The notes beneath the pieces are model-generated. The model had not been told where the DNA came from, ran no database searches, and saw only the letters and a program-made list of their open reading frames with translations. Positions 4,191-22,531 of a stretch of 34,029 nucleotides of DNA are shown here, piece after piece (position 1 is the stretch's first letter; every line of letters starts with the position of its first letter). This DNA comes from Nevskia sp. (GTDB taxonomy: Bacteria > Pseudomonadota > Gammaproteobacteria > Nevskiales > Nevskiaceae), in NCBI GenBank assembly GCA_031291075.1, contig JARLJS010000086.1:1-34029 (forward strand), written 5' to 3'. Both the position numbers and the translations under genes were made by a program.

Positions 4191-4266
4191 CTGCCCGTCG
4201 ACCATGGAATCCAATGGCGGCGATCGCGGTCGAACCTGTCGATATGAATCCGAGACGGATCACGAC

Positions 4267-5049
4267 ATGAGCCTGCCGCCGCCCCTGCCGACGCAAGCCG
4301 CGCTGTTCCTGGACTTCGACGGCACCCTGGTCGAACTGGCTGACCGGCCGGAAGAGGTCCGGGTGCGACCGCAACTGCGGTCCCTGCTGCGGGCGCTGGC
4401 GGTGCGCCAGTGCGGCGCGCTGGCGATCGTCAGCGGGCGGCGCCTGGCCGATGTCGACGCCGTGCTGGCGCCGCTGCTGCTGCCGGGCGCGGGCCTGCAC
4501 GGCGCCGAGTTGCGGCCCCGCGTCGACGCCGAGGCGACGATCCGGCACTGCGGCGAAATGGCCGAAGTGGCGGCCGGGCTGAGTGCCCGCTTCAACGCCG
4601 ATCCGCGCCTGCGGGTGGAGAACAAGGGCGGCGCGGTCGCGCTGCACTTCCGCGGTGCCCCGGAGCGTGCCGCCGACTGCATCGCCGCGATGCGGGAACT
4701 TGTGGCGGGCCGGGCCATCGAAATGATCGGAGGCAAACAGGTGGTCGAAGCTCGGCCGCTCGGCATCGACAAGGGGTTCGCCCTGCGGGCAATCGCGGCC
4801 GAGGCTCCGTTCCGCGGGCGGATGCCGGTGTTCGTCGGCGACGACGTTACGGACGAGGATGGCTTCGCCGCCGCTGCCGCATCCGGTGGCTACGCCATCA
4901 AGGTCGGCACCGGCCCCACCCGGGCGCACTACCGCTGCCGTGATGTGCAGCAGGTGTACGCCTGGTTGCGCGCGAGTCTGCGCGGCGCATCAGGAGCGGA
5001 GAACGGTCATGGACGGCAGCCCATCCCTGGATCTGGGAGTCATCGGTAA
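4267..5049 (+). CDS. otsB: Trehalose-6-phosphate phosphatase
   Basis: 260 residues. HAD-superfamily phosphatase: motif I is LFLDFDGTL with nucleophile D16 and acid D18, motif II is IVSGR, and the C-terminal Mg site is FVGDDVTDEDGF. EARPLGIDKG is typical of OtsB, and the length is normal. It dephosphorylates trehalose-6-phosphate to trehalose, the second step of the OtsAB pathway. ATG 4267 is chosen because homologous sequence begins only a few residues before the DFDGT motif; an in-frame ATG at 4204 would add 21 unrelated residues. The 3' end overlaps the next gene by 41 nt, so translation is probably coupled. Confidence 0.93.
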   Translation: MSLPPPLPTQAALFLDFDGTLVELADRPEEVRVRPQLRSLLRALAVRQCGALAIVSGRRLADVDAVLAPLLLPGAGLHGAELRPRVDAEATIRHCGEMAEVAAGLSARFNADPRLRVENKGGAVALHFRGAPERAADCIAAMRELVAGRAIEMIGGKQVVEARPLGIDKGFALRAIAAEAPFRGRMPVFVGDDVTDEDGFAAAAASGGYAIKVGTGPTRAHYRCRDVQQVYAWLRASLRGASGAENGHGRQPIPGSGSHR

Positions 5050-6802
5050 CTGCGCGATCGGCGCGCTGATCGATCGCAGCGCGCGTATCGTGTGGTGCGC
5101 CCTGCCGCGGTTCGACGGCGACCCTGTCTTCCACGCATTGCTCGGCGAGGGAACAGGCGGAACACACGGCGACTGGTGCGTCGAACTGGAGGGCTGTGAA
5201 CACAGCACCCAGGACTACCTCCCCAACACCGCCGTGCTGAGGACGCGGCTGCGAAGCAGCGACGGCAGCGGCCTGGAAGTCATCGATTTCTGCCCGCGTT
5301 TCTGCGCCCGCAACCGCATGTTCAGACCGCTCATGCTGGTGCGCCGCCTGCGGCCCCTGAACGGCGCCCCGCGCATCCGCATCCGGCTGCGGCCATCCTG
5401 CGGCTACGGCGAGCGCCGTCCGTTGCTGGCGCGCGGCAGCAACCACATCCGCTATGTCGACGCTGCGCTCAGCCTGCGCCTGACCACCAACGCGCCGTTG
5501 AGCTACATCCTGGACGAAACCTCGTTCCTGCTCGAAGAGCCCTTGAGCCTGCTGCTGGGAACCGACGACATGCTGCAGAGCGGCGTCGAGGAGACCGCCC
5601 GCACGTTCCAGGAGCGCACCGAGGACTACTGGCGGCAATGGGTGCGGCGGCTGGCCCTGCCGCTGGAATGGCAGGAAGCGGTGATCCGCGCCGCGGTGAC
5701 GCTCAAGCTGTGCACCTACGAGGAAACCGGGGCGATCATCGCCGCGCTCACCACCAGCGTCCCCGAAGGACCGGGCACGGTGCGCAACTGGGACTACCGC
5801 TATTGCTGGCTGCGCGACGCCTTCTTCGTGGTGCGGGCGCTCAACTCGCTGTCCGAAACCGAGACCATGGAGCACTATCTGCGCTACCTGGCGAACATCG
5901 TGCGCGACTCCCCCGACGGCCATCTGCAGCCGGTCTACGGCATCGCGCTGGAACGGCGACTGGGCGAACGGGAGGTGCCGACGCTGCCCGGTTACCGCGG
6001 CATGGCGCCGGTACGCGTCGGCAACCAGGCGTTCGAACACCTGCAGCACGACGTTTACGGCAACGTGGTGTTGGCCTCCGCCCAGGCCTACTTCGATCTG
6101 CGGCTGCAACGACCGCACCGGCACGCCGACTTCGAACGGCTGGAACGGGTCGGCGGGCGCGCCTATGAAGTTTATGCCACGCCCGACGCCAGCATGTGGG
6201 AGCTGCGCACGCGGGCCCGCGTCCACACCTCGTCGGCGCTGATGTGCTGGGCCGCCTGCGACCGCCTGGCGCGGATCGCCGCCGAGCTCGATCGACCCGA
6301 GCGCTCGCGGCTATGGCAGCAGCGCGCCGACGAGATCCGCGCAGCCATCGAGAAGCGCGCATGGAACCCGGCTCGCAATGCCTACGTCGAGAGCTTCGAC
6401 GGCAACGACGTCGAAGCGGGCCTGCTGCTGATGGCCGAGGTCGGATTTGCCGGCCGCGACGACCAGCGCTTCGCCGCCACCGTGACCGCCATCGAAGCCG
6501 GCTTGCGCAAGGATCAGCACCTGTACCGCTACGACGCGGCGGACGACTTCGGCCCACCGGTGACCGCTTTCAACGGCTGCACCTTCTGGTACATCGACGT
6601 GCTGGCGCGCCTGGGCCGCACCACCGAAGCACGCACTCTGTTCGAAGGGATGCTGGCCTGCCGCAACCACGTCGGGCTGCTGTCCGAAGACATCGACCCC
6701 CGCACCGGCGAGCTGTGGGGCAACTATCCCCAGACCTACTCCCAGGTCGGCATCATCAACGTGGCCATGCGGTTGTCGCGGCGTTGGGAGGAGAAGGTTT
6801 GA
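5009..6802 (+). CDS. GH15-family glucoamylase/trehalase-like hydrolase
   Basis: 597 residues. The protein starts SLDLGVIGNCAIGALID, the N-terminal beta-sandwich typical of bacterial GH15 proteins. The (alpha/alpha)6 catalytic domain carries RNWDYRYCWLRDAFF, GNQAFEHLQHDVYGNVV and the C-terminal LLSEDIDPRTGELWGNYPQ, which holds a conserved glutamate. Members of this family placed with otsBA hydrolyse trehalose or other alpha-glucosides, though several such proteins have no proven substrate. AGGAG lies 12 nt before the ATG at 5009. The gene overlaps otsB by 41 nt and its TGA overlaps the otsA start, so synthesis and probable turnover of trehalose are encoded as one unit. Confidence 0.9.
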   Translation: MDGSPSLDLGVIGNCAIGALIDRSARIVWCALPRFDGDPVFHALLGEGTGGTHGDWCVELEGCEHSTQDYLPNTAVLRTRLRSSDGSGLEVIDFCPRFCARNRMFRPLMLVRRLRPLNGAPRIRIRLRPSCGYGERRPLLARGSNHIRYVDAALSLRLTTNAPLSYILDETSFLLEEPLSLLLGTDDMLQSGVEETARTFQERTEDYWRQWVRRLALPLEWQEAVIRAAVTLKLCTYEETGAIIAALTTSVPEGPGTVRNWDYRYCWLRDAFFVVRALNSLSETETMEHYLRYLANIVRDSPDGHLQPVYGIALERRLGEREVPTLPGYRGMAPVRVGNQAFEHLQHDVYGNVVLASAQAYFDLRLQRPHRHADFERLERVGGRAYEVYATPDASMWELRTRARVHTSSALMCWAACDRLARIAAELDRPERSRLWQQRADEIRAAIEKRAWNPARNAYVESFDGNDVEAGLLLMAEVGFAGRDDQRFAATVTAIEAGLRKDQHLYRYDAADDFGPPVTAFNGCTFWYIDVLARLGRTTEARTLFEGMLACRNHVGLLSEDIDPRTGELWGNYPQTYSQVGIINVAMRLSRRWEEKV

Positions 6803-8208
6803 CACGGCATGGCCTGAAACGGCTGGTCGCGGTGTCCAACCGGGTCGGTCCGGTGCGTGGCGCGGCGACGGCGGGAGGCCTGGCGGTGGGACTGGTCGAG
6901 GCCCTGCGCGAATGCGGCGGCTTGTGGTTCGGCTGGAGCGGGAAGATCTGCAGGAGCACCCCGGGCGCGCCCCACCGGCAGCAGGTCGGCGGCGTGCAAC
7001 TCGTACAGGTCGACCTGGCGCGCGAGGACTACGAGCAGTACTACAACGGCTTCGCCAACCTGTGCCTGTGGCCGCTGCTGCACCTGCGCGTCGACCTGGT
7101 GCGTTACCAGCCCGGCTATTTCGACGCCTACCTGCGCGTCAACGAGCAATTCGCCCACGCCTTGCAGCCACTGCTGCATGCCGACGACACCATCTGGGTG
7201 CACGACTACCACCTGATCCCGCTGGCCACGCGGCTGCGTGAACTGGGGGTGCCGCAGCGCATCGGCTTCTTCCTGCACACGTCGTTTCCGCCGGCCGACC
7301 TGCTGGCGACGCTGCCGAACCACGAAAGGCTCATGCGCAGCCTGTTCGACTACGACCTGGTGGGTTTTCAGACCGAGCCCGACCTGCTCCGCTTCCGCGA
7401 CTACGTCGAACGCGTCGCTTGCGGCCAGGTGCGCGACGGCCGGGTCAGCGCCTTCGGCGGCAGCGTCGAAGCGGCGGCGTTCCCGATCGGCATCGATGCC
7501 CACGCCTTCGCCGCGATGGCTTCCTCCGCCGTCGGGGAGCGCGAGTACCGCCGCATGCGGGAGGCCCTGCAGGGGCGGGCATTGATCATGGGCGTGGACC
7601 GCCTGGACTACACCAAGGGCCTGCTGCGCCGCCTGTCCGCCTACGAGCTGCTGCTGGAACGGCAGCCGGAGACTCACGGCCGTATCGAATATCTGCAGAT
7701 ATCGCCGGTCAGCCGCGCGGAAATCCGGGCCTACCGCGAGTTCCACGCCGAGCTGGACCACGCGGTGGCAAGGATCAACGGCCGCTTCGCCCAGGTCGAC
7801 TGGACGCCGCTGCGCTACCTGAACCGGGCGCTGCCACGCCGCACACTGGCCGGCCTGTACCGCGCCGCGCGTGTCGGCATGGTCACGCCGATGCGCGACG
7901 GCATGAACCTGGTGGCGAAGGAGTTCGTGGCAGCCCAGGATCCCGCCGATCCCGGCGTGCTGATCCTTTCCCGCTTCGCCGGTGCCGCGCAGCAGATGAC
8001 CAGCGCGCTGCTGGTCAACCCTTACGACACCGGCGAAATGGCCGACGCGCTGCTGGCGGCCCACCATATGGGGGTGGAGGAACGGCGCAACCGCCACGCG
8101 CCGCTGATGCGCGAGCTGCTGGAGCACGACGTCAAGCGCTGGCGCGAAGACTTCCTCTCCCATCTGCTGCCTTCGGTAAATCCGTTGCAAGTCCGGAGCC
8201 GTCGGTGA
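6799..8208 (+). CDS. otsA: Alpha,alpha-trehalose-phosphate synthase (UDP-forming), GT20
   Basis: 469 residues. GT20 signatures are present in order: LVAVSNRV at the N-terminus, the GG(A) segment, [17 protein letters not shown] and [14 protein letters not shown]. It transfers glucose from UDP-glucose to glucose-6-phosphate to make trehalose-6-phosphate. The start appears to be TTG at 6799: the sequence GGGAGGAGAAGG ends just before it, the TTG overlaps the upstream TGA (TTGA), and the reading frame gives the family's usual length. No ATG is available in this frame near the N-terminus; a GTG at about 6832 would cut into the conserved VSNRV strand. The gene ends overlapping the acyltransferase start (GTGA). 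Confidence 0.93.
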
Positions 8209-9341
8209 CGTCGCAACCCACACACAGCCAGCCGGCCAATGGCGTGTTGCCGCGTATCGAGGCGCTGGATGGTTTGCGCGCAATCTCGATCCTGATCGTG
8301 CTGTTCGGCCACGGCGCCCACACCACCGGCGCCCCGCGGCTGCTGCGGCCGATGCTCAACATGGGCATCGTGGGCGTCGACCTGTTCTTCGTCATCAGCG
8401 GCTTCATCATCACGCAGCTGCTGCTGCGGGAACGTCGCGGCGGATCCATCAGCCTGGCGAGCTTCTGGCTGCGGCGGGCCCTGCGCATCCTGCCGCCGTT
8501 CGCCGCGGCCTGCGGCGGCCTGGCCCTGGCCGCGACTGCAGGCCTGATGAACTGGTCCTGGCCGTCATTTTTCGGCGCGGTGACCTTCACCAAGAACACT
8601 CCGTTGTTCGGCGGCGACTGGTTCTTCGGCCATTTCTGGAGCTTGTCGGTCGAAGAGCAGTTCTACCTGCTATGGCCGCTGCTCTTCATGCTGGCCGCGC
8701 CCCTTACCGCCAGCACGCAAGCCGTGTCCGCCGTGCTCCTGGCCAGTCCGGTGCTGGCCTGGATGTGCGCCCGCTACTGGCAGCCGCTGCAGAATGTGCT
8801 GCCTTTCATCCCCTACCTCGCGGTGGGTTGCCTGCTCTCGCTGCGGCGCTGGCGCAGCCGGACGTTCCCGCCCGACAGCAGCCGGCGCACCCGTCTGCTG
8901 CGTCTGGCGGCGGTCGTTCCCCTGGGCTTTGGCTGCGCATATCTGAAGGGCGAGCATCGATGGGTCGCCCTGACGATCCCCGCCGAAGCCGTGTTGCTGC
9001 CGCTTTGCGCGTTCATGCTGGTGGACGAATGCGTGCGGCCCGACGGCCTTCTGAAGGGATTGCTGACCGTCGCCGCTCTACGCTGGCTCGGCGCGGTGTC
9101 TTACAGCCTGTACCTCTGGCAGCAGTTGTTCCTGGGGCCGGAGGATGCCTACACCGGGCCCTGGTTCTGGAACCGCTGGCCGCAGAACCTGCTGGCCGCC
9201 CTGGCCAGTGGCGTGCTGGCTCATCTGCTGGTGGAACGTCCCTGCGTCCGGCTCAAGCAGCGTTGGACCCGATCGCGCCGGCCCGCGCCCGGCATCCGGC
9301 CGGAACCCCTGCTGCAGGATCCTGTCCGAGGGAACCTCTGA
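8205..9341 (+). CDS. Acyltransferase family 3 (OafA/YrhL-like) membrane protein
   Basis: 378 residues, about ten membrane helices. It begins RIEALDGLRAISILIVLFGH, holding the family's R-D-G-L-R-A motif and catalytic-type histidine. VDLFFVISGFIITQLLL and FWSLSVEEQFYLLWPL follow, both diagnostic of OafA-type sugar O-acyltransferases. GTG start at 8205 is inside the otsA stop (GTGA), with CGGAG upstream. These enzymes move acetyl or succinyl groups to envelope sugars. Because the gene is coupled to otsA, acylation of trehalose or a trehalose-containing glycolipid is possible, but the acceptor cannot be read from sequence. Confidence 0.88.
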   Translation: MTSQPTHSQPANGVLPRIEALDGLRAISILIVLFGHGAHTTGAPRLLRPMLNMGIVGVDLFFVISGFIITQLLLRERRGGSISLASFWLRRALRILPPFAAACGGLALAATAGLMNWSWPSFFGAVTFTKNTPLFGGDWFFGHFWSLSVEEQFYLLWPLLFMLAAPLTASTQAVSAVLLASPVLAWMCARYWQPLQNVLPFIPYLAVGCLLSLRRWRSRTFPPDSSRRTRLLRLAAVVPLGFGCAYLKGEHRWVALTIPAEAVLLPLCAFMLVDECVRPDGLLKGLLTVAALRWLGAVSYSLYLWQQLFLGPEDAYTGPWFWNRWPQNLLAALASGVLAHLLVERPCVRLKQRWTRSRRPAPGIRPEPLLQDPVRGNL

Positions 9342-9371
9342 ACCATTCCATGCCCTCCCGGGCACAAGAAA

Positions 9372-9422
9372 GCCGGATCGCGCAATAAGGCAAACCTCCG
9401 GCAAGTCGGCAGGCGATCCGGC
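9372..9422 (+). other. Perfect 10-bp stem in a possible structured 3' UTR or small RNA
   Basis: GCCGGATCGC (9372-9381) pairs perfectly with GCGATCCGGC (9413-9422), enclosing an inner CCG/CGG stem and the words GGCAAACC and GGCAAG. The structure lies between the acyltransferase stop and the terminator at 9485-9521, so a structured 3' UTR or 3'-derived small RNA of about 150 nt is possible. The GGCAAACC word recalls the class I cyclic-di-GMP riboswitch, but the rest of that aptamer is not there. Confidence 0.3.
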
Positions 9423-9484
9423 AACATCAGATGGCGTCGCAGCGTCCGATACAGGGCCGATGAAGTAGCCACACGCATCAGCGC

Positions 9485-9521
9485 AAAGCCGCGCCGGCCA
9501 TCCGCGCCGCGCGGCTTTTTT
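9485..9521 (+). terminator. Rho-independent terminator of the trehalose operon
   Basis: A 10-bp perfect stem AAAGCCGCGC (9485-9494) / GCGCGGCTTT (9509-9518) is followed by further T residues, giving a run of six T at 9516-9521. It sits about 145 nt after the acyltransferase stop and ends the otsB-to-acyltransferase transcript before the sigma-54 control region of the next operon. Confidence 0.85.
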
Positions 9522-9561
9522 CGTTTGGGCCGCCGCTGCGCGAAACCGGCAGTAGCTCGCC

Positions 9562-9711
9562 TGTCGTCTCCGCACGACAACATTCAATCCAGTGCCATCA
9601 ACGGCTTATCCCAGCGACGGGCTGACGGCGTCGCCGTTGGGCGACAGCCCCGAGCGCGATTCCACAAGGGCTCTCGCCGATTTCCCGCGTGGATGTGTCG
9701 CGGCGGCGACA
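9562..9711 (+). promoter_or_regulatory. Three GlrR-type enhancer sites (TGTC-N10-GACA) with an IHF-like site
   Basis: Three inverted motifs are spaced almost evenly: TGTC-N10-GACA (9562-9579, exact), CGTC-N10-GACA (9629-9646, one mismatch) and TGTG-N10-GACA (9694-9711, one mismatch). Their centres are 67 and 65 bp apart. TGTC-N10-GACA is the site reported for the sigma-54 activator GlrR upstream of enterobacterial glmY. An IHF-like word, CATCAACGGCTTA (9596-9608, one mismatch to WATCAANNNNTTR), lies between sites 1 and 2. The third site ends 88 bp before the -24 element. A GlrR orthologue is encoded at 19121-20452. The motif match is seen directly; binding is inferred. Confidence 0.7.
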
Positions 9712-9798
9712 GTTTCCGCTCCCGTCTTACCACCCAGCGACGCAAGCACCGCGGGCCGCGCTTTCCAAGCCGTTGAACAAGCGACAGTTCTGCACAGC

Positions 9799-9814
9799 TG
9801 GCCCCGCGCTTGCG
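9799..9814 (+). promoter_or_regulatory. Sigma-54 (RpoN) -24/-12 promoter of the exopolysaccharide operon
   Basis: TGGCCCCGCGCTTGCG matches the sigma-54 consensus TGGCAC-N5-TTGCW at TGGC, C and TTGC. The invariant GG (9800-9801) and GC (9812-9813) are separated by exactly 10 bp. Transcription would begin near 9825, about 35 nt before the GTG start at 9860. The enhancer sites at 9562-9711 and the convergent glrR-type gene fit this assignment. Confidence 0.75.
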
Positions 9815-9859
9815 CAGGTGGGGACGACACAGCGCCCGGCCAGGGAAGGAGCGGAATAC

Positions 9860-11284
9860 GTGGAATCGAGCAACGACATCGTGATCCTGACGCAGGCACG
9901 GCCGCGCTCCCCGCGGCTGGTGATCGCCGGTTGCGTGGCGCATTGCCACGCCGACTACCACGAGTTTCAGCGGTCGCAGGTGACTCCCGCGGCGTTCATC
10001 GTGAAGAGCGACGATGAGCACTATGCCGGCGGCTGCCTGCGGCAGTTGCGGCGCGATCCGGACCACGCGACGGCCCTGGCCTTCATCGACGGCGCGGCCA
10101 GCGATGCCGACCGGCACATCGGCGACGGCGCCCTGCCGGGCAGCGCGGCGCTGCTGATCGAGCGCATCGAACAGTGGCGCAGCCGCGAACGGGCCGTTCG
10201 TTCCAAAGGCGACAACCGCGGACCGGACGCCATGCTGCTCGAGTACATGTGGCTGCGGCCGGGCTACGTGCTGGAACCGCTGGCGGACTGGCAATACCTG
10301 CGGCGTTACCGCTATCCGGTGCTGGAGGCACTGGACCGCAGCGAATCCGATCCCATGACCTGGATCCACGGCCTCGACAAGCACGGCCTGATCGAGCGCG
10401 TGGCGCTGCGCGACCGCCAGCGCGAGTGCGACTTCTGCGGCAGCGCGCATCTCAACTTCGTCGACGTCTGCCCCAATTGCCGCAGCATCGACATCGACCA
10501 GCACACCGCCCTGCATTGCTTCACCTGCGGCCTGGTGGCCCCGGAGGAGCGCTACATCAAGGGCGAGCACCGCATCTGCCCCAAGTGCGGCACGCGTCTG
10601 CGGCACATCGGTTCGGACTACGACCGCCCGCTGGAAACCAACCTGTGCCTGGCCTGCGACCACGTGTTCGTGGAAGGCGAGGTGGAAGCGCGTTGCGCGG
10701 TATGCAAGCGCTCGATGCCCACCACGCGACTGCGGCTGCACAAGATCCACTCCTGGCGCCTGAGCGGCCGCGGCTGCCTCACCGCGCAGGGCGACGGCGG
10801 CCACGGGCAGACCTTGTTCGAGCCGCGCCAGTATCTTCCCTACCCGCATTTCCTGGGCAGCCTGGACTGGGCGTTGAAGCTGGCGCGCGAGGGCTCCCAC
10901 TTCGGCTTCGCCGTGGCCGGGCTGCACCTCGCCAACATGGCCGAGCTGAACCAGGCGCTTGGAGTCGGCCGCACGGCAGAGCTGCTCGACGCCTTCGCCG
11001 ACCGCCTGCGCGAGTCCCTGTCCGACGCGGACCTGGCGACGCGCGCCGATCCGGAGACCATCGTCGTGCTGCTGCCCCACGCCGACCGCAAGCGGCTGGC
11101 CGCGCTGCATCAGACGATGCGGCGGCTGGTGGCGCAGTCGGTCCAGGAAAACGCGGCCGGCCCCAGCTGGCGCATCGCCGAGCACCTGCTGACCGCGAAG
11201 AGCGCCAGGGACGAGGATTCCGCCACGCTGCTGCGGCGCCTGCGCAGCCGGCTGGCCGACAACGCGACGCAGCAGGTGGCCTGA
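9860..11284 (+). CDS. TackOD1-type zinc-ribbon protein with degenerate GGDEF domain
   Basis: 474 residues, soluble. Residues 1-110 look like a divergent receiver-type alpha/beta domain (VILTQARPRSPRLVIAG...FIVKSDDEHYAGG). Residues 120-310 form the TackOD1-like output domain with six CxxC pairs (190-193, 204-207, 220-223, 240-243, 263-266, 279-282), enough for three zinc ribbons. Residues about 332-470 resemble a GGDEF domain (FGFAVAGLHLANMAELN, DAFADRLRESL, IVVLLPHADR), but the catalytic GGDEF is ADPET (396-400) and no RxxD I-site precedes it, so it should not make cyclic-di-GMP. The GTG start at 9860 has AAGGAG 9 nt upstream and follows the sigma-54 promoter; the frame is open farther up but crosses the promoter. 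First gene of the operon. A regulatory or scaffolding role for the synthase encoded next is inference. Confidence 0.72.
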   Translation: MESSNDIVILTQARPRSPRLVIAGCVAHCHADYHEFQRSQVTPAAFIVKSDDEHYAGGCLRQLRRDPDHATALAFIDGAASDADRHIGDGALPGSAALLIERIEQWRSRERAVRSKGDNRGPDAMLLEYMWLRPGYVLEPLADWQYLRRYRYPVLEALDRSESDPMTWIHGLDKHGLIERVALRDRQRECDFCGSAHLNFVDVCPNCRSIDIDQHTALHCFTCGLVAPEERYIKGEHRICPKCGTRLRHIGSDYDRPLETNLCLACDHVFVEGEVEARCAVCKRSMPTTRLRLHKIHSWRLSGRGCLTAQGDGGHGQTLFEPRQYLPYPHFLGSLDWALKLAREGSHFGFAVAGLHLANMAELNQALGVGRTAELLDAFADRLRESLSDADLATRADPETIVVLLPHADRKRLAALHQTMRRLVAQSVQENAAGPSWRIAEHLLTAKSARDEDSATLLRRLRSRLADNATQQVA

Positions 11285-11288
11285 AGCC

Positions 11289-12623
11289 GTGCATACCGTG
11301 CTCGACAACCTGGCCGGCGGCTGGCTGGTGTTCCTCACCTTCCTCCACGGCGGCACCACCCAGCTGGCGGAGAAGTTCGCACCGTTCGTGGTGCTGCTCG
11401 AGGTGCCGCTGTACGTGCTCACCTGGATCGGCGTGATGCACTACCTGTGGCGCCGCCACACCGAGCCGCCGGCCGACGTGCCGTACTTCCCGCGCGTGAG
11501 CTGCATCTGCAACGCCTACGCCGAAGGCCGCGACGTGCAGTACTCGGTGCGCTCGCTGCTGGAGCAGATCTACCCCGGCCACATCGAGGTGATCGTGGTG
11601 CTGGACGGCGCGGTGAAGAACCGCGTCACCTACGAGGCCATCGTCGAGCTGGTGCGACAGTTCACCAGCAACCCGCGCCGCTCGGTGCGCTTCATCCCCA
11701 AGCCGCAGCGCGGCGGCCGCGTCTCCGCCACCAACACCGGCCTGCTCTACGCCACCGGCGAGATCGTCATGGCGCTGGACGCCGACACTTCGTTCGACAA
11801 CGACATGGTGGCGAACGCGATCAAGCCGTTCATCGACCCCGGCGTGGTCGGCGCCACCGGCCCGCTGCGCGTGCGCAACGCGCGCAAGTCGCTGGCGACG
11901 CGGCTGCAGGCGGTGGAATACATGCTGGCGATCTACCTCGGCAAGGTCGGCCTGGCCGAATGGAACATGATCAACAACCTGCCCGGCGCCTACATGATCT
12001 ACCGCACCTCCATCGTCCGCCACGTCGGCGGCTGGAACACCGGCACCGGCGAGGACCTCGACCTGACGCTGCGCGTCAAGCAGTACATCAGCCGCCATCC
12101 CGGGCTGCGCCTGGTGTTCGCGCCGGGGGCGATCGCCCACACCGAGGTACCGGACACCTTCCGTGGCTTCTTCGTGCAACGCCTGCGCTGGGACGGCGAC
12201 CTGTCCTACATCTACTTCCGCAAGCATTGGCACAGCTTCTCGCCGCTGATCGGCTGGAAAAACTTCCTCAGCGTCACCTGGTACGGCCTGCTGTTCCAGA
12301 TCTTCCTGCCGATCCTGCAGCTCGGCTTCTTCGCCTACCTGCTGTGGGCCAAGCCGGCGCCGTTCTTCATCGGCGTGATGCTGCTGGTCTACGCCTTCTA
12401 CGGCGTGCTGACGCTGTTCCAGTTCCTGCTGTTCGTGACGCTGCTGTCCGAGCGGCCGCGCCAGGACTTCGGCTTCATCCTGCTGGTGCCGCTGATGCCG
12501 CTGTTCATGATCAGCGCCCGCGTCTGGAGCGTGGTCGCCACCTTCCACGAATGGTTCAACCGCGCTCACCAGGACTCTCCGATGGGGCCCTGGTGGGTGA
12601 TCCGCCAGGGCGGGCCACGCTAG
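11289..12623 (+). CDS. Processive family 2 glycosyltransferase (exopolysaccharide synthase)
   Basis: 444 residues. An N-terminal membrane segment (about 32-54) precedes a cytoplasmic GT-A domain with VVLDGA, DxD (D164-A-D166), GEDLD (E255, D256) as the base region, and Q297-R-L-R-W301, the Q-x-x-R-W motif of processive synthases. Several C-terminal helices follow (about 328-420). The layout matches PgaC, Alg8 and hyaluronan-type synthases that polymerise a sugar nucleotide while moving the chain through the inner membrane. GTG start at 11289 follows the TackOD1 stop by 4 nt. With an epimerase and GlmS in the operon, an N-acetylhexosamine polymer is the best guess. No PilZ domain is fused. Confidence 0.9.
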   Translation: MHTVLDNLAGGWLVFLTFLHGGTTQLAEKFAPFVVLLEVPLYVLTWIGVMHYLWRRHTEPPADVPYFPRVSCICNAYAEGRDVQYSVRSLLEQIYPGHIEVIVVLDGAVKNRVTYEAIVELVRQFTSNPRRSVRFIPKPQRGGRVSATNTGLLYATGEIVMALDADTSFDNDMVANAIKPFIDPGVVGATGPLRVRNARKSLATRLQAVEYMLAIYLGKVGLAEWNMINNLPGAYMIYRTSIVRHVGGWNTGTGEDLDLTLRVKQYISRHPGLRLVFAPGAIAHTEVPDTFRGFFVQRLRWDGDLSYIYFRKHWHSFSPLIGWKNFLSVTWYGLLFQIFLPILQLGFFAYLLWAKPAPFFIGVMLLVYAFYGVLTLFQFLLFVTLLSERPRQDFGFILLVPLMPLFMISARVWSVVATFHEWFNRAHQDSPMGPWWVIRQGGPR

Positions 12624-12655: not shown

Positions 12656-15052
12656 ATGAACAACCTGCAAGCGTTACGGCAGCGCATCGCACTGCCGGCC
12701 ACCATGGCCTTACTTGCCGGCACCGCCCCGGCCTGGTCCGACCCCGCTCCGCTGGCGCTGCCCGACCTGCTGACCAGCACCGACAAGGCCCTGGTCGTGC
12801 TGGAAGCCGAGGCCGAGGCCGGGGCTGCCAGGCAGGATGTGGCACGCGACCGCGCCGAGCAGGGCCTGCGCATGAGCCTGGGCGGCGGCTACGGCCTGAT
12901 CCGCAACATCGTCGACACCAACCGCGCCTTCACCTATGCCGGCGCCCAGGCCATGGCCGGCTTCAGCTATCCCATGCTCGGCGCCGCCGAGCAGGGCGAG
13001 CGCAAGGTCGACGCCGACCTCGGCAAGCAGCACGAAAAAGACATCCGCTTCCTGGCCGCGCGGCGCATGGCGGAGCTGGAGCTGGAGTCGACCTATGCAC
13101 GCTACTGGGGGGCGCAGGAAGCACTCAAGGTGGTGCGGGCTTATCTCGACAGCGAGCCGCTGGTGCTGCCCAAGCTCGAGCTGCGCGCCCAGCACAAGTT
13201 GATGCTGCAGTCCGACCTGCTCGACGCCCAGGCGGCCTACGCCCAGGCGAAGAGCGACCGCGTGCAGTTCAAGCGCACCGAGGACGACGCCCGCAACCGG
13301 CTGCAACGTCTGACCGGCCGGCAGCTCGGCGAATTCATCGCGCAGGCGGTGCAGCTGCCGTCGGCGCCCACGGTCGACACGGCGCGGCTGGTGCAGCGCC
13401 ATCCCGATATCGCCGCCCTGCGCGCCCAGCGCGACGCCCTCAAGGCCCAGCTCGACGACAGCACCTGGTACGGCCTGGAGGCCAGCCTCGACGTCAACGG
13501 CAGCGGCGTGCAGGACACCTCCCAGGGCGGACCGCTCGGCGGCGCGGCTTTCGTCGGCCTCACCTTCAAGGCCCCGGTGGGGGTGTTCAGCGCCGGCGCC
13601 GCCGAACGCAAGCGCCTGCGCTTCGAGATCGAGAACGTGGAATTGCGCATGCAGGACCGCGGCCAGGAGCTGATGGGCGAATACCAGGCGGCGCAGGAGC
13701 AGCTGGTGCAGCTGCAGCAGGAGGGCCAGCAGATGTCGCAACGGGTGCAGGCCAGCAGCGAGGGACTGCGTGAAAGCTATCTGCGCGGCGGCGCCTTCGC
13801 CGACGAAGGCGTGGACCTGCTGGCGCGACGGCTGCAGGCGTACTACAAGACCGCGCTGGAGGAAGTGGACACGCAGGCCAAGGGCTGGCAGGCCAACGTC
13901 TACCTGCGCGGCTACGCCGTCGAGCAGGCCGCGGACCATGCCGCGGTGTCGACCGAAGTACCCGGCGCGCTCGGTGCGCAACTGGCGGATCCGATCGTGC
14001 AGGTGAACCAGATGCTGGGGGGCGGCGCGCTCAATCTGCCGTCGGCGAACCCGCCGGGGCTGCCCGCCCCTGCTGCCGCCCCCGCGCTCGCACCGGCCGC
14101 TCCGTCGGCAGCGGGCTACCGCATGCAAACGGCCGTCTACAGCGCCCCGGCGACACCGGCTGCGCTGTCCGACGGCGACGACAGCGCCGCCCAGCAAGCG
14201 GCGGCAGGGCCGCGCCTGCAGTTCGCCCCGGCTCTCGGCGCGGCCGCGCCGGACCCGGCCGCCGGCGGCAACACCCCCTCCCCCCTGGCGGTGTACGTGT
14301 GGAACAGCGCGGACCTGATCGCGGCCAAAGGCGATGAGCGGCTGTGGCAGGGGCTGCGCGCCATCCCGGTCGACCGCCTGCTGCTGGGGCTCGACGCACG
14401 CCAGATCGAGGAGGCACGGACCCGGCCGCAGCAGCTGCGCGACTTCCTCGCCACCGCCTCGCAACACGGGGTGAAAGTGGAATTGCTGCTGGGCGATCCG
14501 TCCTGGATCGAACCGGCGCAGCGGCCGAAGCTGGTCGCCATCGTGCAGGGACTGCAGGGCTTCGGTTTCGCCGGGCTCAACCTCGACATCGAACCCGACC
14601 AGATCTACAAACAGATCGACCAGAAGCACTTCGACGACTGGATGGAGACGCTGCGCGCGGCGGCACGCGTCTCGCCCTGGCCGACCGGGGTGAGCATCCA
14701 CCCGCGCTATTTCCGCGACCCGCCCTACGCCAGCTGGAATATCGCGGAGCGGCTGGGCGACGGCGGCATCAACGACGTGGTGTTGATGATCTACAACTCC
14801 AATCCGCAGCGGGTGGCCGACGTCGCCAAGGCGATCGCCGCCCGTGCCCCCAGCCTGCGCTTCCGGGTCGCCCAGAGCGTCGAGCCGCAACTCGAGCCGC
14901 AGCTCAGCTACGCCGGCCGCTCGCCGCACGACTTCCAACAGTCGATGCAGCAGCTGCAGCAATTGCTGGCGCCGCAGCCGAACACCGGCGGCGTGGTGGT
15001 GCAAGCCTGGAACGACCTCCTGAGGATGGGCTATGAAAGTCAGATTCGTTAA
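12656..15052 (+). CDS. TolC-family outer-membrane protein fused to a TIM-barrel-like domain
   Basis: 798 residues, far longer than ordinary TolC proteins (about 430-490). A signal peptide (about 1-28) leads into a TolC/OEP domain (about 35-450) with long helical repeats (LESTYARYWGAQEAL; LMGEYQAAQEQLVQLQQEG). An Ala/Pro-rich linker (about 460-540) connects to a C-terminal (beta/alpha)-type domain (about 545-798): VYVWNSADLI, VDRLLLGLDARQI, HGVKVELLLGDPSW, FGFAGLNLDIEPDQ (acidic pair D644, E646), GVSIHPRYF, NDVVLMIYNSN, FRVAQSVEP. The acidic D-I-E at a strand end resembles glycoside-hydrolase TIM barrels, but I cannot place it in a GH family. A periplasmic polymer-trimming domain tied to the export channel is inferred. 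No strong SD; the end overlaps the HlyD-type gene by 20 nt. Confidence 0.82.
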   Translation: MNNLQALRQRIALPATMALLAGTAPAWSDPAPLALPDLLTSTDKALVVLEAEAEAGAARQDVARDRAEQGLRMSLGGGYGLIRNIVDTNRAFTYAGAQAMAGFSYPMLGAAEQGERKVDADLGKQHEKDIRFLAARRMAELELESTYARYWGAQEALKVVRAYLDSEPLVLPKLELRAQHKLMLQSDLLDAQAAYAQAKSDRVQFKRTEDDARNRLQRLTGRQLGEFIAQAVQLPSAPTVDTARLVQRHPDIAALRAQRDALKAQLDDSTWYGLEASLDVNGSGVQDTSQGGPLGGAAFVGLTFKAPVGVFSAGAAERKRLRFEIENVELRMQDRGQELMGEYQAAQEQLVQLQQEGQQMSQRVQASSEGLRESYLRGGAFADEGVDLLARRLQAYYKTALEEVDTQAKGWQANVYLRGYAVEQAADHAAVSTEVPGALGAQLADPIVQVNQMLGGGALNLPSANPPGLPAPAAAPALAPAAPSAAGYRMQTAVYSAPATPAALSDGDDSAAQQAAAGPRLQFAPALGAAAPDPAAGGNTPSPLAVYVWNSADLIAAKGDERLWQGLRAIPVDRLLLGLDARQIEEARTRPQQLRDFLATASQHGVKVELLLGDPSWIEPAQRPKLVAIVQGLQGFGFAGLNLDIEPDQIYKQIDQKHFDDWMETLRAAARVSPWPTGVSIHPRYFRDPPYASWNIAERLGDGGINDVVLMIYNSNPQRVADVAKAIAARAPSLRFRVAQSVEPQLEPQLSYAGRSPHDFQQSMQQLQQLLAPQPNTGGVVVQAWNDLLRMGYESQIR

Positions 15053-16196
15053 GCCGGAAGCGAGCGATCCCGAGCGTGACCGCGGCATCCGCGTGCCGTA
15101 CGCGCCGGGCAAGCGAGCGCTGGCGCGCTGGCGCTGGTACCTGATCCTGCTGGTGGTGAGCAGCCCGTTCCTGTTCTTCGCCATCAACTTCCTGTACTCC
15201 TCCGTGCTGATCCTGGCGCCGGGCTTCGTATCGCAGGAGCAGCTCACCATCCGCAGCGCCAGCCAGGGCTACGTCGACGAGGTCTACGTCAAGACCCTCG
15301 ACGCGGTGAAGGAAGGCGATCCAGTGGCACGCCTGGCCAACGAGGCGCTGACCACCCACGCCGCGCAGCTGCGCGCGGAGCTCAAGGAGCTGCAGGGCGT
15401 GGCGGCGCAGTTCCACGGCACCACCTCGGCCCCGCTATCGACCGAGAGCTTCCAGGACGAGCTGGAAACGGCGCGCCAGGAGAGAGCACGCCTGGCACAG
15501 CGCGTGAACTCCATCCAGCAACTGGTGGAACAGGGCGCCGCCACCGAAGCCGAGCTGAACACCGCGCGCAGCCAGTATGACCAGGCCTCCTCGCGGCTCG
15601 GCGAGCTGTACCGCACCATGAACATCCAGACCCAGCCGGTGCACCACGGCACCGGGATCGAGGTGCAGACCCGCATCCTGGCGATCCAGACCGAGCTGGC
15701 CAGCATCGACACGCAGGAGCAGGCCATGCTGGTGCGGGCGCCGAAGGGCGGCCGCATCGTCGACCTGGCGGTGGTCAAGGGCGACCAGCTCACCGTGGGC
15801 AGCAAGGTGGCGATGCTCGCACCTGAAGGCGGCGAGATGCATATCGACGCCTACATCCCGCCCAAGAACGCGATCTACGCCACACCCGGGCTGTACGGCA
15901 CGGTGGTGTTTCCGGATGGCAGCCGGCGCCAGGCCGTGATCGCCGACGTGCCGCAGGTGGCCACCGAAGTGCCCAAGGCGCAGAGCGCCCTGCTGGGCCA
16001 GTCCGAGATGGGCGTGCTGGTGCGCATGCAGATGCTGGATGCGGGCCAGTCCGGACAACACGCGCTGACCGACGGGCTGCCGGTGAAGGTCGAATTCGCC
16101 AACGGCTGGGACCTGCAGAGCACCCGCCGATTCGTGGTGCAGATGCAGCACTACTGGGATGACGTCTGGGACCGGTTTTTGCCAAGGAGGGCTTGA
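15033..16196 (+). CDS. HlyD-family membrane-fusion (periplasmic adaptor) protein
   Basis: 387 residues. A basic N-terminus and one membrane anchor (about 33-60) precede a lipoyl-like half (LTIRSASQGYVDEVYV, VKEGDPVARLAN). A helical hairpin with heptads follows (about 115-190: LRAELKELQ, TARQERARLAQRVNSIQQLVEQ), then the second lipoyl half (MLVRAPKGGRIVDLAVVKGDQLTVGSKVAML) and a beta-barrel domain. It should bridge the inner-membrane synthase to the TolC-type protein encoded just upstream. Alginate synthase uses a comparable HlyD-like periplasmic region in Alg44, but the PilZ domain of Alg44 is missing here. GAGG lies about 7 nt before the ATG, inside the upstream gene. Confidence 0.9.
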   Translation: MKVRFVKPEASDPERDRGIRVPYAPGKRALARWRWYLILLVVSSPFLFFAINFLYSSVLILAPGFVSQEQLTIRSASQGYVDEVYVKTLDAVKEGDPVARLANEALTTHAAQLRAELKELQGVAAQFHGTTSAPLSTESFQDELETARQERARLAQRVNSIQQLVEQGAATEAELNTARSQYDQASSRLGELYRTMNIQTQPVHHGTGIEVQTRILAIQTELASIDTQEQAMLVRAPKGGRIVDLAVVKGDQLTVGSKVAMLAPEGGEMHIDAYIPPKNAIYATPGLYGTVVFPDGSRRQAVIADVPQVATEVPKAQSALLGQSEMGVLVRMQMLDAGQSGQHALTDGLPVKVEFANGWDLQSTRRFVVQMQHYWDDVWDRFLPRRA

Positions 16197-16198
16197 CC

Positions 16199-17191
16199 AT
16201 GCGCCAATTGCACAAGGCAGGACCCGCACGCTCCCCCGTGCTGGTCGTCGGCGGCGCCGGCTTCATCGGCTCGCATACGGTGGAAGCGCTGCTGGAACAG
16301 GGCTACCGCGTCCGCGTACTGGACGACCTGTCGGCGGGGCGGCTGGACAACCTGCCGCAGCAGCATCCACGGCTGCAGATCCGCATCGGCGACGCCCGCG
16401 ACGCGGCAGTGGTGCTCAGCGCCATGCACGGCATCCGTGGCTGCATCCACCTCGCCGCCCAGGTCTCCGCCGCGCGCTCGGTCGAGCAGCCGCTGCAGTC
16501 GGCGGAGCGCAACATCCTGGGCTTCATCAACGTGATCGAGGCCGTGCGCAAGCGCGGTGTGCAGCGGCTGGTCTACGCCTCCTCCGCCGCCGTCTACGGC
16601 GACTGCCGGAACCTGCCTCTGGACGAGAACGAAACGCCGCTGCCGACCAATCCCTACGGCCTGGAAAAGCAGATCGACGAACTGTACGCCGGGCTGTACC
16701 GGCGCTTGCATGGTCTGCCCAGCCTGGGCCTGCGCTATTTCAACGTCTACGGCCCGCGCCAGGACCCCGCCTCGCCCTACTCGGGTGTGATCTCGAAATT
16801 CATCGAGCGGCTGCAGGCCGGCGAGTCGCCGCTGGTGTTCGGCGACGGCCGCCAGACGCGGGACTTCGTGCATGTGAAGGACGTGGCGCAGGCCAACGTG
16901 CTGGCCCTGGCCAGCGACTACTGCGGCGTGTGCAACGTCGCCACCGGCACCAGCGTCGATCTGCTGCAGCTGATCGAGGTGCTCAACGTCTGCATCGGCA
17001 CCAACGCCGCGCCGCTGTTCGCGCCGGCGCGTCCCGGCGACATCCGCGATTCGTGCGGCAACGGCGAGCGGCTGTGGCAGCAGCTTGGCTTCACCCCGTC
17101 CCTGGGGCTTGAACACGGCCTGGCCGACCTCGCTGCCAGCTCCACCGCCGCCGCACCGCCGGCCAGGGTCGCCGCGGCGATGCACAAGTGA
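16199..17191 (+). CDS. NAD-dependent UDP-sugar 4-epimerase (GalE/WbpP-like extended SDR)
   Basis: 330 residues. Rossmann motif GGAGFIG (18-24), HLAAQVS, catalytic S129 in YASSAAVYG, and Y153-G-L-E-K157 (YxxxK). LRYFNVYGPRQDP, GDGRQTRDFVHVKDVA and a C-terminal RPGDIRDS are typical of UDP-glucose/UDP-GlcNAc 4-epimerases. It likely makes UDP-GalNAc or UDP-Gal (or returns the reverse) for the polymer synthase. ATG 16199 is preferred to TTG 16193 because AAGGAGG (16185-16191) is correctly spaced only for the ATG. The gene begins 2 nt after the HlyD-type stop. Confidence 0.88.
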   Translation: MRQLHKAGPARSPVLVVGGAGFIGSHTVEALLEQGYRVRVLDDLSAGRLDNLPQQHPRLQIRIGDARDAAVVLSAMHGIRGCIHLAAQVSAARSVEQPLQSAERNILGFINVIEAVRKRGVQRLVYASSAAVYGDCRNLPLDENETPLPTNPYGLEKQIDELYAGLYRRLHGLPSLGLRYFNVYGPRQDPASPYSGVISKFIERLQAGESPLVFGDGRQTRDFVHVKDVAQANVLALASDYCGVCNVATGTSVDLLQLIEVLNVCIGTNAAPLFAPARPGDIRDSCGNGERLWQQLGFTPSLGLEHGLADLAASSTAAAPPARVAAAMHK

Positions 17192-17240: not shown

Positions 17241-19070
17241 ATGTGCGGATTGATCGGAGCACTATCGCGCCGCAACGTCGCCCCACTGCTGCTGGACGGC
17301 CTCAAGCGCCTGGAATACCGCGGCTACGACTCGGCTGGCCTGGCCTGCATAGACGGCGCCGGTATCAGCGTGCACCGGCGCGTCGGCAAGGTGGCGGAAC
17401 TGGAACGGCTGCTGCAGCGGCGCATGCCGGACAGTGCCATCGGCATCGGCCACACGCGCTGGGCCACTCACGGCGAGCCGGAGGAACGCAACGCCCACCC
17501 GCAGGTATCGCGCGACACCATCGCAGTGGTGCACAACGGCATCATCGAGAACTACGAGGGACTGCGCAAAATGCTCGAGGTGATGGGCTACGCGTTCAGC
17601 TCGGACACCGACACGGAAGTGGTCGCCCACCTGGTCCACTATCACTACGCCGGGCTGAGCGACCTGTTCGCCGCCGTGCGTACCGCCGTGAACCAGTTGG
17701 TGGGCGCCTACGCCATCGCGGTGATGGCGGCAGACCGTCCGGACTGCCTGGTGGTGGCGCGCCAGGGCAATCCGCTGGCCGTCGGCATCGGCGACGGAGA
17801 GCAGTTCGTCGCCTCGGACGCGGTGGCGCTGCTGCCGTTCACCGACCGCTTCGTGTTCCTCGAAGACGGCGATGTGGCGTGCCTGGCCGCCGACGGGCTG
17901 AGCGTGCTGGACGCGGACGGCCAGGCCGTGGAGCGGCCACTGCAGCAACTGGACGTCGCCGGCGCCGGCGCCGACAAGGGCCCTTACCGGCACTACATGC
18001 TCAAGGAGATCCACGAGCAGCCGGACGCGCTGGCCGACACCATCCGCGGCTGCGTAGAACACGGCATGCTGCTGCCCGCGGCCCTTGGCTTCACCGACCG
18101 CGAACTGCTGCAGCGGGTGCAGGCCGTCCACATCGTCGCCTGCGGCACCAGCCACCACGCCGGCGAAGTGGCGCGCTACTGGCTGGAATCGGTGGCGCGG
18201 CTGCCGTGCAGCGTCGACCTGGCCAGCGAGTACCGCTACCGCGACCCGGTGGTGCCGCCGGGTTGCCTGTTCGTGACGCTGTCGCAGTCGGGCGAAACCG
18301 CTGACACGCTGGCGGCCCTGCGCTACGCAGCCAAGGCCGGTTATCTCGGCACCCTCGCCATCTGCAACTGCCCGGCCAGCTCGCTGGTCCGCGAATCGGC
18401 CATGCACCTGCTGACCCGGGCCGGGCCGGAAATCGGCGTCGCCTCGACCAAGGCATTCACCACCCAGCTGCTGAGCGTCCTGCTGCTGACCCTGCTGCTG
18501 GCGCACCGCCACCGCCACGACGCGCAGGCCGGGCGCAGCCAGCTCGAGCAGCTGCGCCAGGTCAGCGCCCGGGTGGAGGACGTGCTGAACCTGAGCCGCC
18601 GCATCGAAGCCTTGGCTGTCCCCCTGGTCAACCATGCCAGCGCCCTGTTCCTCGGCCGTGGCCCGCTCTACCCGATCGCGCGGGAGGGCGCCCTCAAGCT
18701 CAAGGAAATCTCCTATATCCACGCCGAAGCCTATGCTTCAGGCGAGCTGAAGCACGGCCCGCTGGCCCTGGTCGACGACCAGATGCCGGTGATCGCCCTG
18801 GCGCCGTCCAACCTTCTGCTCGACAAGCAGCGCTCCAACCTGCGCGAGGTGCAGGCGCGCAAGGGACAGCTGTTCGTGTTCTCCGACCGCGACAGCGGCA
18901 TCGAGGCCGGTCCCGGCGTGCGGCTGGTGGAAATGCCCAAGGTGGATGCGCTGTCCGCGCCGATCGTCTACGCGGTGGCGCTCCAGCTGCTCGCCTATCA
19001 CGCCGCGGTGCTGCGCGGCTCGGACGTCGACAAGCCGCGCAACCTCGCCAAGTCGGTGACGGTGGAGTAG
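17241..19070 (+). CDS. glmS: Glutamine-fructose-6-phosphate aminotransferase (isomerising)
   Basis: 609 residues, normal family length. Cys2 directly after Met is the N-terminal glutaminase nucleophile (MCGLIGALSRRNV), followed by RLEYRGYDSAGLA and TRWATHGEPEERNAHP. Two SIS domains hold CGTSHHAGEVARYWLE, TLSQSGETADT and EIGVASTKAFTTQ, and the protein ends NLAKSVTVE as GlmS does. It makes glucosamine-6-phosphate, the entry to UDP-GlcNAc. AGGAG is 7 nt before the ATG. As last gene of the exopolysaccharide operon it probably provides precursor when the polymer is made. Whether a housekeeping glmS exists elsewhere cannot be seen. Confidence 0.95.
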   Translation: MCGLIGALSRRNVAPLLLDGLKRLEYRGYDSAGLACIDGAGISVHRRVGKVAELERLLQRRMPDSAIGIGHTRWATHGEPEERNAHPQVSRDTIAVVHNGIIENYEGLRKMLEVMGYAFSSDTDTEVVAHLVHYHYAGLSDLFAAVRTAVNQLVGAYAIAVMAADRPDCLVVARQGNPLAVGIGDGEQFVASDAVALLPFTDRFVFLEDGDVACLAADGLSVLDADGQAVERPLQQLDVAGAGADKGPYRHYMLKEIHEQPDALADTIRGCVEHGMLLPAALGFTDRELLQRVQAVHIVACGTSHHAGEVARYWLESVARLPCSVDLASEYRYRDPVVPPGCLFVTLSQSGETADTLAALRYAAKAGYLGTLAICNCPASSLVRESAMHLLTRAGPEIGVASTKAFTTQLLSVLLLTLLLAHRHRHDAQAGRSQLEQLRQVSARVEDVLNLSRRIEALAVPLVNHASALFLGRGPLYPIAREGALKLKEISYIHAEAYASGELKHGPLALVDDQMPVIALAPSNLLLDKQRSNLREVQARKGQLFVFSDRDSGIEAGPGVRLVEMPKVDALSAPIVYAVALQLLAYHAAVLRGSDVDKPRNLAKSVTVE

Positions 19071-20457: not shown

Positions 20458-20937
20458 CTAAGGTCCCCGCTGATTGATCTGCCGCTCGATCTCGACCACC
20501 TGCGACAGCCGCCGCCGCAAGTCCTGGGTCTCGCCCAGGCACTGTGTGCTGCTGCGCAGCTCGTCCAGCCGCACGCGCGCCAGCGCCGCCACCGGTTCAG
20601 GCGGATTCTGGGCGAGCACCGCGCGCAGGCTGCGCTGCGCGGCGAGCGGATCGTAGTTGGCGTGGTCCGGCACGCTTTGCAGCAGCGCCAGCCGCAGGTT
20701 GCTGTCGGTGCCGCGCGGGGCCGCCTGCACCTGCCGCCACATCGCCTGGCGCACGCTCGCCCCGCCCTCCATGGCCTGGGCCAGGAACTGCAGGTCGTCG
20801 GCGGCGCGGACTTCGGCGGTAGGACCGGTATCGAACGGCAGCGCCGCGCACCCCGCCGTCATCGCCGCGAGCACCGCGCTAGCGGCCGCGTGGCGGATGG
20901 GGCCAAGCCAGCCTGAAACGCGCACCTGGTTCAGCAT
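20458..20937 (-). CDS. QseG-like lipoprotein of the GlrK/GlrR system
   Basis: 159 residues. The N-terminal signal ends in a lipobox-like AMTAGC, giving a lipidated cysteine at about residue 30. The remainder is helical, with a C-terminal coiled stretch (ETQDLRRRLSQVVEIERQINQR). It lies between the kinase and glrR genes, the position of qseG in enterobacteria, where QseG is an outer-membrane lipoprotein that controls the kinase GlrK. Sequence similarity to QseG is not obvious by eye; position and lipobox carry the call. GGAGGTCGAGG lies directly upstream of the ATG, and the start overlaps the kinase gene by 59 nt. Confidence 0.7.
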   Translation of the reverse strand: MLNQVRVSGWLGPIRHAAASAVLAAMTAGCAALPFDTGPTAEVRAADDLQFLAQAMEGGASVRQAMWRQVQAAPRGTDSNLRLALLQSVPDHANYDPLAAQRSLRAVLAQNPPEPVAALARVRLDELRSSTQCLGETQDLRRRLSQVVEIERQINQRGP

Positions 20938-22414: not shown

Positions 22415-22531
22415 AGCCGGACTTGGACAGGCAAGACCCCGCCGCGGTTCGGATTTTCGTCGGCCTGGGGCGCAGGTCGGCAGGTGTTCCCGGCGCGACA
22501 CGCAGGATCACAGACGACCGCGCTACGGCGG

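Follow-up and report, generated by a model that had tools for sequence, protein, structure and literature searches.

The stretch 9562-9813 is very probably a GlrR-activated, sigma-54-dependent promoter of a polymer operon that carries its own GlmS gene, with both GlrR binding and RpoN dependence predicted from the DNA. It lies in what we call the window, i.e., the whole stretch of 34,029 nucleotides that was analyzed, which is contig C256 of a 5.65-Mb genome in 302 contigs. A sigma-54 enhancer promoter under GlrR is of a known kind, and the variant proposed here is that GlrR acts directly, without small RNAs, on a polymer operon that includes a GlmS gene of its own. The GlrR work in the papers cited below concerns enterobacteria, where GlmY, a small RNA, is its best characterized target. 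GlrR control of a polymer operon had been put forward in an original prediction made from the sequence of the window, and the clustering of the elements, their conservation and their E. coli-like geometry argue for it. The features are listed in Table 1.

Table 1. Features of the predicted promoter region, the operon and the regulator genes in the window
Feature	Position	Strand	Description
Terminator-like hairpin with T run	9502-9521	+	parts the enhancer sites from the upstream trehalose/acyltransferase genes; hairpin at 9502-9514; 1 found, shuffle mean 0.7
GlrR-type site 1	9562-9579	.	TGTCGTCTCCGCACGACA, exact TGTC-N10-GACA; begins 237 bp upstream of the -24 element
GlrR-type site 2	9629-9646	.	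CGTCGCCGTTGGGCGACA, 1 mismatch; begins 170 bp upstream of the -24 element
GlrR-type site 3	9694-9711	.	TGTGTCGCGGCGGCGACA, 1 mismatch, degenerate; begins 105 bp upstream of the -24 element
Weak IHF-like stretch	9766-9778	-	2 mismatches; between site 3 and the promoter
Putative sigma-54 -24/-12 promoter	9799-9813	+	TGGCCCCGCGCTTGC, exact TGGC-N7-TTGC
Gene A	9860-11284	+	TackOD1 domain (PF18551, 202 bits) and GGDEF domain (PF00990, 40 bits), degenerate from reading
Gene B	11289-12623	+	family-2 glycosyltransferase, PgaC/NodC-like, far under the PgaC/NodC cut-offs
Gene C	12656-15052	+	outer-membrane efflux (TolC-like) protein, C-terminal TIM-barrel domain with LDIEP
Gene D	15033-16196	+	HlyD-type periplasmic adaptor
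Gene E	16193-17191	+	NAD-dependent sugar epimerase, GalE/TviC-like, under the GalE/TviC cut-offs
Gene S	17241-19070	+	second GlmS, glutamine--fructose-6-phosphate aminotransferase; TIGR01135 789.7 bits, cut-off 418
glrR	19121-20452	-	sigma-54 response regulator
Small lipoprotein-like protein, qseG position	20458-20937	-	no family match; weak match to QseG (E 0.01)
Histidine kinase, glrK position	20879-22351	-	start uncertain; ORF is 20879-22501

The three TGTC-N10-GACA sites, spaced 67 and 65 bp apart, and the TGGC-N7-TTGC element were all found exactly where the original prediction had placed them. The sites fit the consensus sequences given for GlrR/QseF, TGTCN10GACA (PMC8745638) and TGTN12ACA with three sites (PMC6075780). 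Of the window sites, site 3 is the weakest, and its counterpart in the nearest relative L029 is weak as well (2 mismatches); in the window it can also be read as TGTC-N8-GACA at 9696-9711, a better palindrome with the wrong spacing. Ahead of the glmY gene of E. coli MG1655, which served as a control, three exact sites begin 203, 170 and 107 bp upstream of TGGCACAGTTACTGC; two of the three positions in the window (-237/-170/-105) are within 2 bp of these. Counts of single elements are unremarkable in this GC-rich DNA: one-mismatch TGTC-N10-GACA sites occur 13 times across the window versus 9.4 expected (at least 13 in 18 of 100 shuffles), and one-mismatch -24/-12 matches 62 times versus 49.6 expected (as high in 4 of 100 shuffles), four being exact. 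It is the clustering that stands out, since just one exact -24/-12 element in the window is preceded by three sites at a distance of 40-300 bp, an arrangement absent from all 300 dinucleotide shuffles (both strands), and a looser cluster test on the 450 bp 5' of gene A was passed by 2 of 3000 shuffles. The -24/-12 element has the GG-N10-GC spacing. As its -12 C is at 9813, transcription is expected to start at 9825, which would leave a leader of 35 nt with GGAAGGAG before the GTG start at 9860. No sigma-70-like promoter was found in 9300-9900. IHF is given for GlrR/QseF promoters in PMC6075780 and PMC8745638, and at the offset of the IHF-like stretch in the window similar stretches with 1-2 mismatches exist in L031, L032 and L082, with none up to 2 mismatches in L029 and L030.

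Adjoining genes from A to S overlap or are at most 50 bases apart, and the operon is predicted to be transcribed as one unit, A-B-C-D-E-GlmS. The most telling of these genes is the second GlmS gene, which was absent from the original prediction; given GlmS and the epimerase, the operon product is likely an amino-sugar polymer. We rejected an identity with the PNAG (pga/ica) operon, as gene B scored 113 bits against the PgaC/IcaA synthase model (cut-off 422) and no PgaB-type deacetylase was among the matches of the six operon proteins. No exosortase was among these matches either. The C-terminal domain of the gene C product is predicted to fold as a TIM barrel (pLDDT 92.5), with D117 and E119 of its LDIEP motif invariant. 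Because its fold matches in the PDB are mixed, comprising a xylanase inhibitor, pyruvate carboxylase, MTHF reductase, a GH18 chitinase and xylanases (TMq about 0.47-0.60 among the 50 matches listed), the term glycosidase rests on LDIEP and context; a sequence search of the PDB gave no match up to E 1. The barrel, fused here to a TolC-like protein (14237-15049 in the window), could be aligned across 18 sequences that range from Nevskiaceae to Desulfurella. Upstream of the operon, at 4264-9341, the window contains trehalose-phosphatase, GH15, trehalose-phosphate synthase and acyltransferase genes, and trehalose genes are also found within the fetched stretches of L030, L032 and L082.

The protein encoded at 19121-20452, named GlrR in the original prediction, is supported as a GlrR-type regulator by several sequence comparisons. 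It is 53.9% identical to E. coli GlrR and the best of the eight matches of the latter in the window's genome at E ≤ 1e-60 (472 bits; the next scores 340). It possesses receiver and sigma-54 AAA+ domains closest to those of GlrR, and its top model is PRK15115 at 548 bits, under the curated cut-off of 763, with a PEP-CTERM regulator model at 341 bits. Its C-terminal helix, which we take to be the recognition helix from its place at the C-terminus, is near-identical to AARMAGRNRTEFYKL of E. coli, and the pattern RNRT[DEN]FYKL was found by pattern search in 26 of 30 GlrR loci (the window's own included) and in E. coli. The neighboring kinase shares 27% identity with GlrK, while the QseG-like protein, without a family match, resembles QseG weakly (E 0.01 over 37 residues); the gene order kinase-QseG-like-GlrR is that of the GlrK-QseG-GlrR system. 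RpoN was present in all eight genomes tested. The window's genome has two RpoN matches (G000:C94:1031-2506 and G000:C11:1982-3379).

Gene A was searched for in 100 genomes including that of the window, and 23 had a match, namely, the window's genome, five with full-length homologs (53-70% identity) and 17 with weak matches to a part of the protein (the TackOD1 part in G026, the GGDEF part in 16). The operon has six Nevskiaceae carriers: the window, G007, G011, G039, G023 and G042. The motifs are conserved in these relatives, and the lack of conservation that the original prediction named as grounds for its refutation was not observed: in all six an exact TGGC-N7-TTGC is located 48-88 bp upstream of the start codon of gene A (inferred from the alignment in G042 and G023), and GlrR-type sites begin 104-105 and 170-184 bp above this element (the proximal site of G007 having 2 mismatches). 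When the 450-bp upstream stretch of each carrier was shuffled 3000 times, 2, 0, 0, 0, 1 and 0 shuffles passed. In the other five carriers the kinase, QseG-like and GlrR genes precede gene A and diverge from it, unlike in the window, where the group is downstream and convergent. This group adjoins gene A directly in L032 (Solimonas fluminis HR-BB) and L082, and is parted from it by an EF-hand gene in L031, by trehalose genes in L030 and by 1.45 kb in L029. The complete set from A to GlmS is found in the window, L029, L031 and L032; G042 has GlmS at the expected position, with the epimerase stretch outside what was read, and the G011 contig stops within gene B.

A search with the operon core returned 23 loci, and the closest operon relatives among named contigs were Nevskia, Nevskiaceae and Solimonas, so that the window's genome is taken to be that of a gammaproteobacterium of the Nevskiaceae type. 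Nineteen of the 23 loci are distant copies of the core, in Nitrosomonas and others. Beside these copies, several of which are on short contigs, the site scan gave no site pairs accompanied by a -24/-12 element, and there was no match to GlmS and none to the epimerase except one of 27% identity in L047, which makes the promoter, gene E and gene S look like a Nevskiaceae arrangement. Four of the distant loci (L038, L039, L042 and L049) have NtrC-type regulators of 42-44% identity.

Promoters of the same architecture were sought in 25 sequences with a GlrR gene, which are related loci whose counts are not independent, and the scan gave 24 sites in 18 of them, versus 1 site in 1 of the reversed sequences. 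We took two of the 24 as background, at 11893 in the window (within gene B) and at 17820 in L100 (overlapping a kinase match). Seven sequences did not pass (L029, L086, L088, L089, L090, L094 and L095), of which L029, L088 and L095 pass a looser scan. The strict proximal pattern matched at 58 places in 100 genomes including that of the window, versus 22 for the reversed pattern, and is thus enriched yet noisy alone; it has no match in the window's genome (G000), as the degenerate site 3 makes it miss the window promoter. The middle-site pattern gave 22 matches versus 4 in 12 genomes, two of them in the window's genome, at the operon promoter and at C59:26525 (viewed at the start of the locus only).

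The genes behind these promoters suggest that direct structural targets of GlrR-type promoters are common in the order. Alginate-type operons have such a promoter beside the regulator in G038, G027, G055, G035 and G021. In G050 and G032 the first gene behind one is algD-like; the regulator of G050 is on another contig, and no GlrR was found in G032 at E ≤ 1e-120. In seven genomes of the family (L083, L084, L085, L087, L091, L173 and L174), GlrR-type sites and a -24/-12 element are directly upstream of the alginate-type or algD-like genes. Selected proteins of the alginate-type operons belong to the ManC/AlgA, phosphomannomutase, nucleotide-sugar dehydrogenase, family-2 glycosyltransferase and PilZ-HlyD families, and the AlgK match is under its cut-off; Alg8 and Alg44 are presumptive labels. 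Genes for BON, CsbD, glycine-zipper and other small envelope proteins follow GlrR-type promoters in L092, L093, L095 (weaker), L096, L097 and L099. We also examined 17 loci 3' of glrR from other families of this order, family f6 supplying 12 of them. The promoter is present in 12 of the 17 and is followed by a small EF-hand protein in seven by translation (L180, L182 and L184-L188; Pfam was run on three of the seven) and in an eighth, L183, whose DNA reads as EF-hand by eye. No clear ORF is behind the promoter in the other four (L181, L189, L190 and L191), with L190 and L191 being the same places as L098 and L101. A GlmY-like small RNA behind GlrR-type promoters, which L098 and L101 had suggested, was dropped for the loci of the EF-hand set and may still hold for the four without a clear ORF. 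The EF-hand proteins of L180 and L182-L188 are small and secreted, and a GlrR-type promoter in L031 near 9363 (- strand) likewise leads to one; the kinase-regulator genes come next in the same direction, which suggests autoregulation. The original prediction of a polymer operon rather than a small RNA as the target stood as to the polymer operon, and understated the rest, as structural targets are common and in E. coli, too, GlrR activates a protein-coding gene, rpoE (PMC6075780).

Two GlmS genes were found in all five carriers whose contig covers the operon end (that of G011 is cut) and in G026, and one in each of five non-carriers tested. A branch supported at 100/99 sets the five carriers' operon GlmS proteins apart from the housekeeping GlmS; the G026 copy is on a long branch and its placement is unsure. 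In G026 a GlmS gene is behind a -24/-12 element and adjoins the regulator genes, the sites also suit a divergent unit with a gene-A-like protein, and a proximal site at the usual distance from the GlmS promoter was not found. We rejected GlrR control of the housekeeping glmS, since none of 12 such loci has a GlrR-type promoter within the ≤1.5 kb fetched on each side, though one may lie further upstream. GlmY (RF00128) was found in none of 10 genomes at E ≤ 1, all six carriers included, the E. coli control being positive, and the window has no Rfam match at the gathering score. A RapZ-type protein is present in all eight genomes tested, and that of the window's genome, encoded near rpoN, shares 127 identical residues with E. 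coli RapZ (284 residues). It keeps Asp182, His190, Thr248, Gly249, His252 and Arg253, of which we take the last five to be the sugar pocket, and, unlike E. coli RapZ, has no basic end at its C-terminus. RapZ of E. coli stimulates GlrK/GlrR when free of GlcN6P, its pocket is widely conserved and its RNA-binding tail enterobacterial, and control of a two-component system has been guessed as its first role (PMC7073468).

We propose that GlrR is phosphorylated by the neighboring kinase, and that its phosphorylated form would bind about 170 and 105 bp ahead of the -24 element, as well as at a third site 237 bp ahead of it. DNA bending, perhaps by IHF, would carry GlrR to the RpoN-polymerase, where ATP hydrolysis would open the promoter for transcription from near 9825 through A-B-C-D-E-GlmS. 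The operon would then make and export an amino-sugar polymer by means of the glycosyltransferase, the HlyD adaptor and the TolC-like protein with its glycosidase-like barrel, the second GlmS supplying glucosamine-6-phosphate and the epimerase a sugar isomer. By this arrangement the regulator known from E. coli probably acts directly to increase both the supply of sugar and the amount of polymer made. Weighing against the GlrR reading are the degenerate site 3, the seven further activators encoded in the genome, the convergent downstream place of the regulator genes in the window, the weak likeness to QseG, the seven GlrR loci that did not pass the scan, the promoter of G032, where no GlrR was found at E ≤ 1e-120, and the absence of sites from the scan of the distant core copies.

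Three other explanations need to be weighed against this one. One attributes the sites to chance in GC-rich DNA and the transcription of the operon to some other promoter. It draws on the abundance of one-mismatch sites in the window (13 versus 9.4 expected), but is hardly credible given the absence of the cluster from all 300 shuffles, the equal spacing in six of six carriers and the 24 sites versus 1 in the reversed-sequence control. It is also improbable, if somewhat less so, that the promoter is a sigma-54 promoter whose main regulator is another NtrC-type activator, with GlrR binding weakly or not at all. The genome does encode seven further sigma-54 activators matching E. coli GlrR at E ≤ 1e-60, the window has no glrR upstream of the promoter, and G032 has a GlrR-type promoter with no GlrR match at E ≤ 1e-120; against this, the sites fit the GlrR/QseF consensus (PMC8745638, PMC6075780) with two E. 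coli positions within 2 bp, 18 of the 25 GlrR-bearing sequences have similar sites, and in the other five carriers it is the GlrR genes that are found upstream and divergent.

A GlrR-activated promoter still leaves the signal to be explained, and here we incline slightly to the explanation that GlrR answers general envelope or surface stress, with GlmS serving polymer supply only and no GlcN6P feedback. The targets in relatives (alginate-type, EF-hand, BON and CsbD) are without a known glucosamine link, as this would have it, but RapZ is present with the residues that we presume to form the sugar pocket, and a GlmS gene adjoins GlrR-type sites in G026 too, in a different arrangement. More doubtful, though possible, is a GlcN6P loop free of small RNAs, in which RapZ would sense low GlcN6P and stimulate the GlrK-type kinase, and phosphorylated GlrR would activate the operon, whose GlmS would restore GlcN6P. 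If true, this loop would be the direct circuit guessed as RapZ's original role in PMC7073468, with GlmY/GlmZ coming later in enterobacteria.

In near-same geometry, the GlrR site is found ahead of structural genes across several families of another order. One of the operons would again have GlmS as its output, reached without an RNA. Whether direct GlmS control or the small RNA came first, and what RapZ does outside enterobacteria, can now be tested. In addition, the promoter signature would allow GlrR regulons, including alginate-type and other polymer operons, to be predicted in unstudied bacteria.

Sigma-54 has already been linked to exopolysaccharides in general in PMC3162934, a table of which gives QseF-like activators another role; a GlrR/QseF regulator directly driving a polymer operon was not found by title or abstract in a literature search outside which most subscription papers fell. 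The closest known system is E. coli glmY with GlrR, which has the same three TGTC-N10-GACA sites, two of them near -170 and -105, and a sigma-54 promoter, and whose GlrR-GlmY-GlmZ route also has GlmS as its end point. The window promoter differs in preceding a polymer operon with its own glmS, so that its output would be direct. The GlrK-QseG-GlrR system of E. coli likewise has a near-identical GlrR recognition helix and a kinase and a small lipoprotein-like gene beside glrR, but the window kinase is only 27% identical and the QseG-like protein barely similar. The mxdABCD operon of Shewanella presumably has a later HlyD-type gene. Its c-di-GMP-linked first gene and membrane glycosyltransferase second gene also recall our operon, a likeness by description and not by sequence, but it is regulated by ArcS/ArcA and BarA/UvrY (PMC3691769). 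The PEP-CTERM floc former described in PMC9850573 is similar in that pepA is an RpoN-dependent, exopolysaccharide-linked gene for which a two-component pair, PrsK/PrsR, is suggested, and differs in that the window regulator appears to be GlrR-type and no exosortase is among the operon matches. AlgB of Pseudomonas, named in PMC3162934, is an NtrC-type regulator tied to alginate, whereas the alginate-type operons of the window's relatives have GlrR-type sites and a -24/-12 promoter. Finally, at rpoE P2 of E. coli, GlrR and sigma-54 also act on a protein-coding gene, but the target there is a sigma factor gene (PMC6075780), whereas the predicted target in the window is a polymer operon.
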